NCBI RefSeq assembly: GCF_000023445.1
Contig: NC_012881.1
Span: 3,504,001 to 3,568,000 of the forward strand
From: Maridesulfovibrio salexigens DSM 2638
GTDB taxonomy: Bacteria; Desulfobacterota; Desulfovibrionia; Desulfovibrionales; Desulfovibrionaceae
Length of the DNA: 64,000 nucleotides
Reading direction: 5' to 3'
The translations under genes were made by a program, and so were the position numbers. Shown piece after piece: positions 1,316 through 41,081 of this stretch. Every line of letters starts with the position of its first letter. Within the stretch, counting starts at the first letter, position 1. The notes beneath the pieces are model-generated. The model was not told where the DNA came from, ran no database searches, and saw nothing but the letters and a program-made list of their open reading frames with translations.

Positions 1316-2986
1316 ATGGGCCTTAAATTCAGACGAAAAAATGCGACAAGACCACCGTTGCTCTTTGTCAGTGATGTTCGGCGTGAATTTCTTATCGCTG
1401 ATATTACCCGGAATTCAGTCCCGCGCGGTATGTATTACCTGCTTATGGGCGTAGCTGCATTCATTGCATCCATAGGGCTCACAGCCGACAGCCCGGCAGT
1501 AGTAATCGGGGCAATGCTTGTCTCACCTCTGATGACACCTATTTTCGGACTTTCACTTGGATTGGTGCGAGGTGAAATGGACCTCATCCGCGCTTCTATC
1601 TTTTCAGTAACAGCTGGAATTTTAATCGGAATATTAGGCGGCATACTTATCGGAAGCCTCCCGATCTTCTTTGAGCTGACCCATGAAGTAATCTCAAGAA
1701 CAAAGCCCAACCTGCTTGACCTTGGAGTCGCCGCTTTTGCCGGAATAGCTGGAACAGTCGCCCTCATTGACGAACGGGTGAGCCCGGTTATGCCCGGAAT
1801 CGCAATAGCCACATCCCTTGTTCCTCCACTATGTGCCAGCGGTCTTTGCATCGCGCTTCACCAATATTCTGATGGCTGGGGGGCTTTTCTGCTCTTCTTC
1901 GCCAACTTTCTGGTTATTCTTTCTGTTGCCAGCGTGCTTTTCATTATTACCGGGTTTATTCCTCATTCCGAGGATGAACCACTGCCTCGGCTGATAAAGC
2001 ATTTCTCCGTAACCACTATAGGGCTGATCATTGTTGCAGGATTTCTAACCAAATCCCTCGTGGAGGTCGCCCTTTCCCGGCAGATCGACAACAGTTTACG
2101 AACCGTAGCAACTCAGGCAATTACATCAATTCCTAATACAACCATTGAAAAGATAAGCCATGAAATAGATGAAGGTGCCGTAAACGGCTTCATCACTCTT
2201 AACGGGCCGACATCACTTAAAGCTAAGGCCATAAAAACTATGGAAGAACATGCTTCGCAAGTTCTTCATAAACCAGTAAAAATCATTGTCCGCACCAGCA
2301 TTACCCAAAGTATTTCTTCCTCTCCGCAATCAACCAGCGCCCTGCTAAACGCCCATGCCAAAAAACAACATATAAAGCTTGAGCAAAGCGCCATGATTCT
2401 GGAACAGGCAGAACTATTGCTCCGCAGTATTATATCCGAATATCCATGGTACACTCTTGCAGGAATTAATTACGCAAAACTTAAAAGCGGTCCGGGTCTG
2501 ATCATCGAGATCAGCGGACCTGAACGCCCTATGCCGGAATCAGTTGAGAGGTTGGAGAAAGTGCTGCGTAAGAATACCGGAGTAAACGACCTTTCGCTGA
2601 TCATCCGCTACTACAAAAGCTACGACATAACCCGCAACGGCAGGAATCTGTTCGGAGTTCACTATTCAGGAAAAGAATCCCCACAGGCCAAAACAATTGA
2701 ACAACAAGCCGCAAAGTTAATAGGTGAACTGCGGAACATATTCCCAATCCATGTTGAGGCCCAGCCTATGAAAAAAGGCTGGAAAATCATGGCGGATGTT
2801 ACCGGAGCGCGCCTTGTTCAAAGTAAGGAAATTAAAAAGATAGAAAAGAAGCTTACAGATATGCTTTCGGCTCCGGTCAAACTATACGTGTATTCGAAAA
2901 CAGAAGGTGTGATTGAGAATGACGGCATTAAACCCCTTGAATTTTTCAATACTACACACCAGATCAAACGCCTTGATTTGAAATAG
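1316..2986 (+). CDS. DUF389 (TIGR00341-like) integral membrane protein
   Basis: A 556-residue protein whose N-terminal half (about residues 38-265) contains six or seven hydrophobic segments rich in Gly/Pro motifs such as GAMLVSPLMTPIFG, characteristic of the DUF389 family. The C-terminal 290 residues are mostly soluble and contain two or three repeated alpha/beta stretches (for example around 270-330, 370-430 and 460-530). The function of DUF389 proteins is not established; a transport or channel role is only a guess. The ATG at 1316 follows CCGGAG. No operon partner is evident: the upstream gene is divergent and the kinase at 3106 is separated by about 120 bases. Confidence 0.8.
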   Translation: MGLKFRRKNATRPPLLFVSDVRREFLIADITRNSVPRGMYYLLMGVAAFIASIGLTADSPAVVIGAMLVSPLMTPIFGLSLGLVRGEMDLIRASIFSVTAGILIGILGGILIGSLPIFFELTHEVISRTKPNLLDLGVAAFAGIAGTVALIDERVSPVMPGIAIATSLVPPLCASGLCIALHQYSDGWGAFLLFFANFLVILSVASVLFIITGFIPHSEDEPLPRLIKHFSVTTIGLIIVAGFLTKSLVEVALSRQIDNSLRTVATQAITSIPNTTIEKISHEIDEGAVNGFITLNGPTSLKAKAIKTMEEHASQVLHKPVKIIVRTSITQSISSSPQSTSALLNAHAKKQHIKLEQSAMILEQAELLLRSIISEYPWYTLAGINYAKLKSGPGLIIEISGPERPMPESVERLEKVLRKNTGVNDLSLIIRYYKSYDITRNGRNLFGVHYSGKESPQAKTIEQQAAKLIGELRNIFPIHVEAQPMKKGWKIMADVTGARLVQSKEIKKIEKKLTDMLSAPVKLYVYSKTEGVIENDGIKPLEFFNTTHQIKRLDLK

Positions 2987-3105
2987 AGACTCTATGCTGT
3001 AAATTTCAAAGGCCAAAGGCACCAATTTATCCAAATCAGTCTGGATGCCTTCCCCTCCATTTGTTATGATCATTATGATTATTAACTTAGCAGCGGGAAG
3101 AACTA

Positions 3106-5065: not shown

Positions 5066-5104
5066 TATACAGTGAGATACAGCGGTTAAGCTGCGTATGT
5101 TCTA

Positions 5105-6641
<1,537 letters not shown>

Positions 6642-36143: not shown

Positions 36144-37031
36144 CTAACCCTGAAGAATCACGGCTTTCGCAAGCTCTAAAAATCGCTTAAGCGGAGGCGA
36201 ACTCCACTTATCGACATGAGTGATCACCATGATCATCGTTTCCGTAGGGGCTGGGCTCCACTCAAGCCGGACAAGAGTGCCTTTCTCAAAGTCTCGGGCC
36301 AGCACCCGTTCAGGACACAGGGCAATCCCCATTCCTCTCCGCAAACAATTCAGCTGTGCCCTGCCGCTGGAAAAAATTATTGATTTTGTTTGTACGTTAT
36401 TGGTTTCAAGCGACCGCTTGAAGTCTCGTCTGTAGCTTCAATCAACCCGCAATTGCAATAACGTCTGCCCCTGCATATCTGCATCAGACAGAACCCCTTT
36501 CCCCGCCATCGGGTGCCCGCAAGAAGCTGCAAGAGTCAAGGCTTCGGGTCGAAGAGCCTCCACCGTTACGCTGTTGAAGCTCAATGAGCTGCTCATCAAG
36601 AAAGCCGCATCAATGCGACCGGAATTCAATTCTTCCTTCAAGTGTTCATCATCACAGTTGTTAAAAACAATCTGCGTATTGGGATATTCCGAGGAAAAAG
36701 CCTCTATAACTTCCGGCATGTATTCTGAACCGATTGTCTCAGGCATTCGGATTGTGATCGTACCTGAATAATTACGCCCACCCGAAAGACCGTCACGAAC
36801 CTCTTCACTCATCTGAAGCATACGCCGGGCATAATCCCGCAACATTTCTCCTGCTTCAGTAAGCACAATCCCTCGACCGATCCGATCAAAAAGCCGGACT
36901 CCAAGATCTTCTTCCAACAATTTTATCTGGGCGGAGACAGAAGACTGAGCCAGATACAGATCTTTTGCCGCCCGGGTAAAGTTCAGACGCTCGGCTACTG
37001 TCAGAAAAGTTTTCAATTGTCGTATTTCCAT
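36144..37031 (-). CDS. LysR-family transcriptional regulator, probable selenoprotein (Sec198)
   Basis: From ATG 37031 (GGAG upstream) the LysR helix-turn-helix (about 1-60: AAKDLYLAQSSVSAQIKLLEEDLG) and effector domain run to an in-frame UGA at 36438-36440. The same frame continues with SYRRDFKRSLE, RRGMGIALCPERV and ends at 36144, giving 295 residues, the normal LysR length. UGA occupies the position where many LysR proteins have Cys in G-C-S/T-Y-R; OxyR has its peroxide-sensing Cys199 (GHCLRD) at the corresponding place. A perfect seven-pair hairpin with GGUC loop starts 15 bases after UGA, as expected for a SECIS. The divergent neighbour is a redox Cys-rich protein, its likely target. Read as two frames, it would be mis-annotated as a broken gene. 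Confidence 0.85.
36405..36422 (-). promoter_or_regulatory. bacterial SECIS element in the LysR gene
   Basis: On the minus strand UUCAAGC-GGUC-GCUUGAA: seven perfect pairs and a GGUC loop. Loop bases fall at positions 23-26 after UGA, matching the spacing of the loop G and U contacted by SelB in E. coli fdhF, whose loop also contains GGUC. Confidence 0.85.
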
Positions 37032-37041
37032 TCAACACTCC

Positions 37042-37119
37042 ATCGTTTCACACGATTACTGCGATCGCAAACAATCGTTGGACGCGATCACTTAATGTGA
37101 ACAATAGTTAATAGCGATC
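37042..37119. promoter_or_regulatory. candidate LysR operator cluster in divergent intergenic region
   Basis: ATCG-N7-CGAT at 37042-37056 fits the T-N11-A LysR box. The palindrome TGCGATCGCA lies at 37060-37069, and GCGATC recurs at 37061, 37084 and 37114, spaced 23 and 30 bases. The cluster lies between the LysR gene and the divergent Cys-rich gene. Confidence 0.5.
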
Positions 37120-37141: not shown

Positions 37142-37576
37142 ATGAATTGCTGTAACAGAAACATATGCGGAGCGGCTGATAAATCAGGAAATTACTTTCT
37201 AAATGGGTACCATTGCGCCGAGGCTGTTGTCAGAGGCTCTATTGAGCATGCGGGAATGAAACCGGATGAAATTGTCCGCTACGCCACCCCCTTTGGCGGA
37301 GGCTATGGCAAAACATTTCAGGAAGCATGCGGAGCACTAAGCGGAGCCTTAATTGTAATCGGGCATCTCTACGGTCGCAATGAAGCAGGACAGAGTTGGG
37401 ACTATCCGGCTGCCCTTGCCGAAATAATCAGAGATAAATTTTTAGAAAAATACGGCACAACAAAATGCATTAATCTGAGAGAAAAATTCGGACCTGAAGC
37501 ACAACAACAAAAATGTTCTGAAATCGTCCGCTGGATAAGTTGCGAAGTAATGGATGAGCTGGAACTGGAGAATTAG
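37142..37576 (+). CDS. C_GCAxxG_C_C family redox protein
   Basis: 144 residues belonging to the Cys-rich family named for its C-GCAxxG-C-C pattern: Cys25 in NGYHCAEAV, Cys63 in EACGALSGAL, Cys109, Cys125 and Cys134, plus extra N-terminal cysteines (CC, C9). The function is not settled; the conserved cysteines suggest electron transfer or thiol redox work. AGGAGG precedes the ATG at 37142. It is divergent from the Sec-containing LysR regulator with 110 bases between, the classic LysR-target layout, so it is the most probable regulated gene. Confidence 0.85.
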   Translation: MNCCNRNICGAADKSGNYFLNGYHCAEAVVRGSIEHAGMKPDEIVRYATPFGGGYGKTFQEACGALSGALIVIGHLYGRNEAGQSWDYPAALAEIIRDKFLEKYGTTKCINLREKFGPEAQQQKCSEIVRWISCEVMDELELEN

Positions 37577-39191: not shown

Positions 39192-41081
39192 ATGGCATAC
39201 TGGAACCTTTTGTGCGATATAAAAACAATGAGCGGAAATACAGACAAATTGAACTTGAGTGCAGCCATCTTAGCCGGTGGCGAAGGGCGACGCATGGGCA
39301 GGACCGATAAATCCTGCCTTGAAATTTCCGGTGAAAAACTGGTCAGCAGGATCATCCGCAGTCTTGAAGGTATTTTTTCGGAAACCTTTATCATTACCCG
39401 CACCCCGGAAAACCACCCGGACCTTGATGTACGGCTGGTTGGAGACCTGTTTGAATCACGTAGTTCACTGACCGGAATACATTCCGCGCTCTACCATTCC
39501 CGCACTGATCATGTGTTCATCACCGCCTGTGATTCACCATTCCTTAACCGGGAACTAATCAGCGAATTGCTGAGCAGGGTTGAACCGGATGACGATGTGG
39601 TGATTCCCATACACCCGGACGGCTTCTACGAACCACTCTGCGCTGTTTATTCAAAACGCTGCCTGCCGTTTATCGAAGAAAATCTGAAAAAGAATATATT
39701 TCAGATCATCCGCTTTTTCCCGCAGGTAAAGGTAAAAACCGTGAACACGGACTTGCTGGCAAAGAAAGATCATGGCCTGACAACTTTCATAAACATAAAT
39801 ACTCCTGATGAATTAAGCCGGGTCCGCGAAGATCTGGATAATCCTACAGACAGATCCGGCAGCGGACAGAACTCTTTCCCACACTCCATCCCGCGCAGTG
39901 CAGCTCTCAAACTTATCCGTAAAAGCATTGCCCTGCCAAAAAGCGAATACGTTCCTGTAACGGACTGTTCAGGACTAGTTGCCGCAGAAACCCTGCAATC
40001 GGGTATCTCCCTGCCTGAACATGACCGCTCGGCCATGGATGGATTTGCAGTACCCAGTGCATTCACTGCTGCTGCGTCCGCAGATATACCGATTGAGATG
40101 GGCTTTTCCGGGGAAGTTCGCCCCTCCTGTCCGGTACCGGAAAAATGCGAAGAACAGGCTGTCCGTGTCCTGACTGGCGGAATTATTCCCGAAGGCACCG
40201 ATGCGGTCATACCCTTTGAGAACGTTCAGGTGGGGGAATGCTCCATCTGCATTAGCTCTCCGGTGCGCGAGGGGGATTTCATCCGCAAAACCGGATCGGA
40301 TATTATGAAGGGTGAGACCATCGTCAATTCGGGCACTGTTATTTCGCCCTGTGACGCCGCTCTGCTGGCTTATGCCGGAATCCGCTCCATTCCAACTTAC
40401 CCATTACCCAAAGTGGCTGTAATGGCCGTTGGCAATGAGCTGTGCGATCCGGCCCAGAAAACCCAGTGCGGCCTGATTCCGGCTGACAACCTCATCCTCA
40501 TGAAATCCTTATGCTATCGTTACGGAATCCGTGATGTGCGCATTGCGCCCTGCACGAATTCTCCGGAAGCTATATCCGAAGCAGTGCAGGCCAATAAAGA
40601 TTGCAGGCTGATCGTCACTACCGGTGGAACAGGTCCCGGCAACCGCGATTTTGTATTCAATTCCATCCAACAGGCCGGAGGAATACCTATTTTCAAAGGG
40701 CTGGCCATGCATCCGGCAAAATCAGTATTTGCATTCAGCATGGACAACTCAATTGTCATCGGACTGCCCGGCCCGCCCAATGCAGTGAATCTTGCCTTCC
40801 ACACCATAGTCAATCCGGTAATCAATATGTTGCAGGCAAAAACGGTAACTTCCACCACGAGCCCGGCAATTCTTACCGATGCGCTGAAAGGTGGACGCGA
40901 CCGGGAAAAACTACGTCCCTGCCGCATTTTTGAAGACAACGGGAAAATTTTAGCTGACCCTTTGCTCGATAAAACCTTTTCACCACGTAAGGTTATGAGC
41001 CTGTGTAACGGAATAATCATTCTTCCTGCGGACTGCGGAGAACTTCCTCCTCAGAGCGTTGTTCAAGTAATCCGTCTCTAA
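39192..41081 (+). CDS. MobA-MoeA fusion: molybdenum cofactor guanylyltransferase plus molybdopterin molybdotransferase
   Basis: 629 residues in two enzymes. Residues about 22-215 are MobA-like: LAGGEGRRMGRTDK nucleotide-binding loop, GDLFESRSSLTGIHSAL and ITACDSPFL. Residues about 225-629 are MoeA-like: LPEHDRSAMDGFAV, LTGGIIPEGTDAVIPFENV, and TTGGTGPGNRDF near 475. Together they insert molybdenum (or tungsten) into molybdopterin and attach GMP to make bis-MGD, used by formate dehydrogenases and related enzymes. The start is uncertain: ATG 39192 has AAGG only two bases away, and ATG 39228 has none. A fusion of consecutive steps could channel the cofactor. Confidence 0.9.
   Translation: MAYWNLLCDIKTMSGNTDKLNLSAAILAGGEGRRMGRTDKSCLEISGEKLVSRIIRSLEGIFSETFIITRTPENHPDLDVRLVGDLFESRSSLTGIHSALYHSRTDHVFITACDSPFLNRELISELLSRVEPDDDVVIPIHPDGFYEPLCAVYSKRCLPFIEENLKKNIFQIIRFFPQVKVKTVNTDLLAKKDHGLTTFININTPDELSRVREDLDNPTDRSGSGQNSFPHSIPRSAALKLIRKSIALPKSEYVPVTDCSGLVAAETLQSGISLPEHDRSAMDGFAVPSAFTAAASADIPIEMGFSGEVRPSCPVPEKCEEQAVRVLTGGIIPEGTDAVIPFENVQVGECSICISSPVREGDFIRKTGSDIMKGETIVNSGTVISPCDAALLAYAGIRSIPTYPLPKVAVMAVGNELCDPAQKTQCGLIPADNLILMKSLCYRYGIRDVRIAPCTNSPEAISEAVQANKDCRLIVTTGGTGPGNRDFVFNSIQQAGGIPIFKGLAMHPAKSVFAFSMDNSIVIGLPGPPNAVNLAFHTIVNPVINMLQAKTVTSTTSPAILTDALKGGRDREKLRPCRIFEDNGKILADPLLDKTFSPRKVMSLCNGIIILPADCGELPPQSVVQVIRL

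Follow-up and report, generated by a model that had tools for sequence, protein, structure and literature searches.

Can a bacterial transcription factor carry selenocysteine (Sec) in its sensing domain, and what would the residue do there? The question is raised by a locus of Maridesulfovibrio salexigens DSM 2638 (genome of 4,289,847 bases, one contig), which we analysed within a 64,000-nucleotide stretch of DNA (hereafter referred to as the window). An earlier note on this DNA had described a LysR gene reading through a UGA at codon 198 to a length of 295 residues, and had proposed that its product is a Sec-containing redox sensor. With the TGA read as a residue, translation of the minus strand from 37031 to 36144 yields a 295-residue product that ends at a normal stop and has its only TGA at codon 198; this confirms the gene and supplies the strand that the note had left unstated. 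The ordinary open reading frame, in which UGA is a stop, has only 197 residues (36438–37031); automatic annotation probably cuts such genes short at residue 197, and they would be overlooked. Read on the plus strand, 36144–37031 is noise, containing four TGA and two other stops. The gene and its unusual codon are as follows.

36144–37031, minus strand: LysR-type regulator of 295 residues with predicted Sec198 (ORF translation and Pfam)
36438–36440, minus strand: in-frame UGA at codon 198, predicted to encode Sec (the 38 non-UGA homologues compared from the same large clade have Cys)

The translated protein is a LysR-type regulator. Pfam assigns an N-terminal HTH_1 domain to residues 3–62 (PF00126, 6.7e-24) and a C-terminal LysR_substrate domain, which spans the TGA, to residues 88–290 (PF03466, 1.3e-36), and the nearest PDB folds listed are LysR regulators.

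A search profile made from six relatives was run on 348 genomes of the same class and on 389 genomes of the class to which locus L012 belongs, with a threshold of E 1e-68 and at most six candidates scored per genome. It gave 115 matches (69 and 46, respectively), of which 25 (9 and 16) contain exactly one TGA, 90 contain no stop and none contains TAA or TAG. The Sec form is patchy, being present in 9 of the 348 and 16 of the 389 genomes of these two Desulfobacterota classes, and a single alignment column holds all 25 TGAs. The alignment consists of 71 rows: 55 of 60 fetched loci (the five omitted being duplicates of retained rows), the M. salexigens gene and 15 of 49 earlier loci. At column 198, 25 rows have UGA and 38 rows from the same large clade have Cys (the Cys group, which includes L014, from a record titled Proteobacteria, and the identical L015 and L122), and the 8 outer rows, mostly Bacillota, have six Cys and two Ser. 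An in-frame UGA sharing a single column with Cys in homologues is the pattern of a bacterial selenoprotein gene. The Paenibacillus and Lysinibacillus homologues read C-S-Y-R at the UGA position, as the earlier note had stated for LysR proteins (G-C-S/T-Y-R), and more distant Sporomusaceae homologues have Ser at position 198. Homologues with neither Cys nor Sec, which that note had named as evidence against a selenoprotein, did not occur among the clade rows, all 63 of which have one or the other.

Conservation at the protein level continues beyond the UGA. Between M. salexigens and L011, protein identity is 69% before and 68% after the codon, with third codon positions varying most, and mean identity over 276 Sec-gene pairs is 59% before and 49% after it; 24 of the 25 UGA genes have no further in-frame stop. 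A survey of the genus at E 1e-50 located the gene in 2 of 17 genomes, both with the TGA, and did not find it in the other 15. The frame is intact in G011, the sole other genus genome having the gene among the 17 searched, and the loss of frame in close relatives envisaged as a counter-argument was not seen. A phylum-wide sample of 395 genomes gave 16 matches, with TGA in the M. salexigens gene only. One Sec-form copy, from G414 (L123, L151 and L181), has a frameshift near the N terminus and one hairpin mismatch, and lies beside a CMD gene with an in-frame TGA; it represents either decay or an assembly error.

A second feature of the UGA genes is an RNA hairpin shortly 3′ of the codon, with GG/GU in its loop, as expected of a bacterial SECIS element.

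36405–36422, minus strand: bacterial SECIS-like hairpin of 7 pairs, loop GGUC at 36412–36415, 22 nt after the UGA (folding and covariation)

The 45-nt piece starting at the UGA folds into this 7-pair hairpin at −8.2 kcal/mol. By contrast, the minimum-energy fold of a 71-nt piece is another structure, no better than shuffles (z −0.25), so that the single sequence alone is weak evidence and the support came from comparison. The 25 UGA genes share a seven-pair stem that starts 15 nt past the UGA and a four-base loop. The loop reads GGTC in 23 of 25 Sec forms versus 0 of 38 Cys forms, and the inner six pairs are complete in 24 of 25 Sec forms but in none of the 38 Cys forms or the 8 outer genes. 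In the 25-row alignment, 96% of stem cells pair, as against 30–45% in slid versions, and an unguided consensus fold recovers 6 of the 7 pairs. Both sides have changed at 3 of 7 pairs, which 8 of 500 shuffles reach, and the covariation score was reached by 0 of 500, in shuffles that do not keep relatedness. When the M. salexigens protein was randomly recoded with synonymous codons, 166 of 200,000 recodings gave a 7-pair stem with a GGUC loop at the same place. Residue 206 is Arg in 24 of 25 Sec forms versus 5 of 38 Cys forms, and residue 207 is Ser in 23 of 25 versus 0 of 38; since the hairpin bases encode this Arg-Ser, part of the protein appears to be shaped by the RNA. The perfect 7-pair hairpin, its GGUC loop and the 22-nt distance given in the earlier note were thus reproduced, but the spacing does not match Escherichia coli fdhF as claimed, because the fdhF loop starts 18 nt after its UGA.

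The machinery for Sec insertion is present in the host. In the M. salexigens genome, selB and tRNA-Sec score above their family cut-offs and selA is present, which answers the requirement for selA, selB and selC raised in the earlier note. Across the Sec-form genomes, selA was found in 24 of 25, with no match in G342 (84% complete), and tRNA-Sec was found in all six genomes tried, four of them Sec-form. The selA gene is also present in 19 of 22 Cys-form genomes tried, so a Cys form does not imply a genome without Sec. Collectively, the conserved UGA, the covarying hairpin, the Cys homologues and the Sec machinery strongly support Sec in this LysR regulator, and codon 198 of the M. salexigens gene almost certainly encodes it.

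In a midpoint-rooted tree of 70 rows, from which the frameshifted copy L123 was dropped, the 24 Sec forms lie on one side of a branch with support 97/93. With this root, the Sec forms are nested inside the Cys forms, with L078 and L079 as the nearest Cys proteins and some long branches flagged. The simplest reading would be that Cys was replaced by Sec a single time, ahead of the spread over the two classes, or that transfer accounts for the spread. Genus g12 has a Cys-form LysR with a long C-terminal extension (L090, L092–L095, L097–L099; L163:5914–8091), giving 445–704 residues in total, and Pfam shows nothing beyond the LysR domains in the one protein tested.

The position of residue 198 bears on what Sec might do. 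In an AlphaFold model based on 48 sequences (pLDDT 88.7, pTM 0.72), residue 198 immediately precedes the helix of residues 199–210 in the second subdomain, a position that we take to be the usual LysR effector cleft; Sec198 thus very probably sits at the mouth of the effector or sensor cleft. The structural matches listed are solved LysR regulators, including OxyR and the sulfite sensor YeiE. Three cysteines accompany Sec198.

36654–36656, minus strand: Cys126 codon, with Cys in all 25 Sec and all 38 Cys forms compared; a candidate partner of Sec198
36345–36347, minus strand: Cys229 codon (22 of 25 Sec and 37 of 38 Cys forms have Cys)
36315–36317, minus strand: Cys239 codon (Cys in 22 of 25 Sec forms but in none of the 38 Cys forms)

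Three of the 25 Sec forms lack Cys229, and three lack Cys239. The place of residue 198, the conservation of Cys126 in 63 of 63 rows and the way in which Cys239 tracks Sec led us to propose a selenolate switch.

A comparison with known regulators sets the protein apart from the families nearest to it. E. coli OxyR (b3961), which senses peroxide and sulfane sulfur, has the same LysR architecture (hhalign, 27% identity, E 2.8e-36) and a reactive chalcogen at nearly the same place in the effector domain. However, the equation of the UGA with OxyR Cys199 in the earlier note is one residue off in the profile alignment, in which residue 198 lies opposite His198, one before Cys199, with a one-place shift possible. 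Leu208 lies opposite OxyR Cys208, and a one-place shift would bring no Cys there; OxyR also has other divergent partners. We therefore rejected membership in the OxyR family (NF008361), for which the score is 105.1 bits against a cut-off of 329 and the equivalent of the Cys199/Cys208 pair is absent. LysR_Se/HrsM (NF040786) is likewise a LysR family of Sec-decoding organisms, and the earlier note had raised the possibility of a link to this selenium-metabolism family. It is the best NCBIfam match of the M. salexigens protein, but the score of 136.2 bits lies well under the cut-off of 250, four further Sec forms score 129–160 bits, and a separate LysR_Se member above the cut-off, without a stop, is present in 8 of 8 Sec-form genomes tested, including M. 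salexigens; the link was therefore dropped. HrsM/LysR_Se is described as a regulator of selenium genes in the available text of PMC5322559, in which no Sec within the protein itself is mentioned. The M. salexigens protein is thus a LysR regulator by fold and a selenoprotein by the sequence tests, and falls under the cut-off of the NCBIfam LysR families (best 25 of 55).

As in the predicted bacterial selenoprotein families (PMC9312934, PMC12013277), Sec replaces a conserved Cys and is followed by a SECIS-like hairpin. LysR is absent from the families tabulated in the accessible text of these two sources (87 in the former and nine more in the latter), as is a LysR protein from that of PMC8318568, and the available text of the 2026 review PMC13188914 mentions neither a LysR protein nor a transcriptional regulator or transcription factor. 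The literature searched contained no Sec-containing LysR, in the text at hand; supplementary tables, most subscription papers and preprints, which lay outside its scope, could record one. A family of Sec-containing LysR regulators in sulfate-reducing bacteria thus appears to be undescribed so far. The only regulator-like entry in the family tables seen in PMC9312934 and PMC12013277 is FmdB. FmdB is a small zinc-ribbon protein. Two families discussed below, C_GCAxxG_C_C and CMD, are among the known families listed there with Sec-containing forms (PMC9312934, tables as available), and differ from the present case in that here they are presumed targets and not the regulator.

The intergenic region upstream of the LysR gene contains a palindromic element, beyond which a divergent gene begins.

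37074–37088, plus strand: operator core ATCGTTGGACGCGAT with palindromic ends ATCG-N7-CGAT, in the divergent intergenic region (from sequence)
37042–37067, plus strand: further half-sites, ATCG at 37042–37045, CGAT at 37053–37056 and ATCG at 37064–37067, each about one helical turn apart (conserved)
37142–37576, plus strand: C_GCAxxG_C_C family protein (PF09719, TIGR01909) without in-frame TGA, presumed target (Pfam and NCBIfam)

In most loci, the LysR start is preceded at 40 to 80 bp by a ATCGTTGGACACGAT-type element. The ATCG/CGAT half-sites are spaced 10–11 bp apart, in phase with the helix; half-sites one helical turn apart are the layout expected of a site for a LysR tetramer. An operator match in at least 12 of 15 positions occurs within 200 bp upstream in 23 of 25 Sec loci and 16 of 22 Cys loci. 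Lower values were obtained for L139, L150, L152, L153, L156, L160 and L015 (11 of 15) and L016 (9), and the outer loci L017 and L018 match at 11 and 10 of 15. The exact core pattern has 23 matches, in 18 of the 25 Sec-form genomes. Fifteen of these matches belong to the LysR locus, and a reversed control has none in the same 25 genomes. By eye, seven of the eight off-locus matches (L184, L186, L189, L191, L196, L198 and L200) appear to be inside unrelated coding sequences, and that of L199 is intergenic, beside an unrelated-looking gene; as they fall mostly in unrelated coding sequence, the 25 Sec-form genomes gave no indication of a wider regulon. Scanning the intergenic region for sigma-70 promoters gave one match versus 0.5 in shuffles, to which we attach no weight. 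At the level of sequence, the locus thus has the arrangement of a LysR regulator, with a divergent target and a palindromic operator in the shared intergenic region.

The divergent genes form a restricted set. A divergent C_GCAxxG_C_C gene or remnant begins no more than 200 bp away in 14 of 25 Sec loci and 13 of 20 Cys loci examined, and in L139 and L162 such a gene is 1.9 and 0.8 kb away. Except for the broken L155 copy, these partners have no in-frame TGA within the matched domain. In L155 (about 5100–5300) and L159 (about 2600–3070), C_GCAxxG_C_C frames are interrupted beside an intact Cys-form LysR, and in L155 a CMD gene comes next. We know of no established function for C_GCAxxG_C_C proteins. 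In the Sec loci L012, L013, L148 and L151, the divergent gene encodes a CMD protein with a CYPU motif read over a TGA, beside the same operator, so that a predicted Sec regulator would be paired with a predicted Sec effector. Other Sec loci have a CMD protein with CYPC (L136), a DGC protein (L150) or, adjoining an exact operator, a MerB-like protein (L143; PF03243, 1.9e-12); the CMD assignments are by Pfam for L012, L136 and L148 and by likeness for L013 and L151. The L143 MerB-like gene, about 200–940 bp upstream of the LysR start on the opposite strand, has two in-frame TGA, and its product possibly contains two Sec. Among the Cys loci, the partner is CMD in L039 and L155 (Pfam) and L154 (likeness), OsmC in L168 and a rhodanese in L170. 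The divergent proteins of L140, L145 and L146 (118–248 residues) form one family without a clear name: Pfam has no match for those of L140 and L146, or for the L167 partner, and NCBIfam has none for L145 and L146 and one weak dam match for L140 (0.0051, far under the cut-off). Further along the M. salexigens window, at 39192–41081, MobA-like and MoeA-like domains are fused in one 629-residue protein.

The named divergent partners are mostly of thiol-chemistry families (C_GCAxxG_C_C, CMD, DGC and MerB), and the gene neighbours suggest that the family senses reactive thiol, sulfur or peroxide chemistry. Given the shared operator and gene pairing, the Sec-containing regulator in all likelihood controls its divergent gene. 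The operator and the partner family occur with the Cys forms as well, so the circuit does not require Sec.

What the sequences offer is thus a conserved UGA, a hairpin, an operator, a Cys counterpart, the Sec machinery and a gene pairing. The best explanation overall, to which we assign a probability of roughly 0.78, is a sensor-regulator in which a selenolate at residue 198 acts as a switch on operator binding and control of the divergent gene. The UGA would be read as Sec by means of the hairpin just downstream, and the regulator would bind the conserved operator between its own gene and that of the divergent cysteine-rich redox protein, controlling the latter and probably itself too. Sec198, which immediately precedes a helix of the effector domain's second half, would lie at the mouth of the cleft where LysR proteins bind effectors and OxyR is oxidised. 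There, the selenolate may react reversibly with sulfane sulfur or polysulfide, peroxide or another soft electrophile, and a bond with Cys126, Cys229 or Cys239 might form in the process; the reaction would change operator occupancy, in whichever direction regulation runs. That the selenolate senses a reactive thiol, sulfur, peroxide or electrophile signal is probable, and a local selenolate-based sensor-regulator of the divergent gene is the most likely role. The redox-sensor proposal of the earlier note stands firmly as regards Sec in a LysR protein; redox or thiol sensing is plausible from the position and the neighbours. According to the accessible text of PMC6831875, OxyR detects sulfane sulfur through persulfidation of Cys199, and sulfane sulfur is toxic whether or not oxygen is present, which would make it an attractive signal for sulfate reducers.

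Several other readings of the locus were weighed against the selenolate sensor-regulator. If the UGA were a real stop, the gene would be a pseudogene or would encode a deliberately short 197-residue protein, as standard ORF calling gives it, and the N-terminal frameshift in the G414 relative could be placed in the same light. We rejected the pseudogene stop in view of the column conservation, the covariation and the post-UGA conservation: the codon occupies one column in 25 genes, 24 of them without another stop in frame, and it has a Cys counterpart, making a real stop extremely improbable. More room must be given to an ordinary small-molecule LysR, in which the side chain of residue 198 only binds an effector and Sec has no special chemistry. 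Residue 198 presumably occupies the effector cleft typical of the fold, the more distant homologues from Sporomusaceae carry Ser at this position, and the nearest folds include small-molecule binders such as YeiE; against this, every clade row compared has Cys or Sec, and the partners belong to thiol-chemistry families, and we consider it unlikely. A sensor of metals, metalloids or organomercury, with Sec198 and the conserved cysteines binding Hg(II), As(III) or alkylmercury and controlling detoxification, would fit the three conserved thiols and the MerB-like gene beside the exact operator of L143. That partner, however, occurs in 1 of 25 Sec loci, most others being C_GCAxxG_C_C or CMD, and neither mer nor ars genes were present among the three neighbours scanned at the M. 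salexigens locus, so that such a sensor is improbable.

The UGA could also make the gene a selenium-status switch, yielding a 197-residue fragment (the DNA-binding domain and half the sensor) without selenium and the full regulator with it, so that the ratio would report selenium supply. The codon is placed such that the HTH, the linker and the first subdomain remain intact, and the four CYPU partners carry an in-frame UGA themselves. Nevertheless, the C_GCAxxG_C_C partners, including that of M. salexigens, lack an in-frame TGA in the matched domain (the broken L155 copy excepted), the Cys forms keep the circuit without a UGA in genomes that mostly have selA, and all Sec-form genomes tested have a separate LysR_Se regulator; a switch of this kind alone is quite improbable. 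A combined reading, in which the selenolate sensor is additionally gated at the UGA by selenium supply and one gene integrates selenium status with the level of reactive sulfur or peroxide, is unlikely: without selenium, the 197-residue DNA-binding fragment would occupy the same operator, and in four relatives the regulator would control a partner itself carrying an in-frame UGA.

The selenolate sensor-regulator, if true, would matter beyond this locus. Almost all of the bacterial selenoprotein families tabulated in the accessible parts of PMC9312934 and PMC12013277 are enzymes, redox carriers or transport proteins, and a sequence-specific transcription factor whose sensing cleft contains Sec would add the perception of signals in gene control to the uses of the 21st amino acid. 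The regulator would also offer a way into the regulation of the C_GCAxxG_C_C proteins. With an operator and partner families in common, the Sec and Cys forms constitute a natural pair for asking what selenium adds to a thiol switch, be it speed, reversibility or choice of signal.
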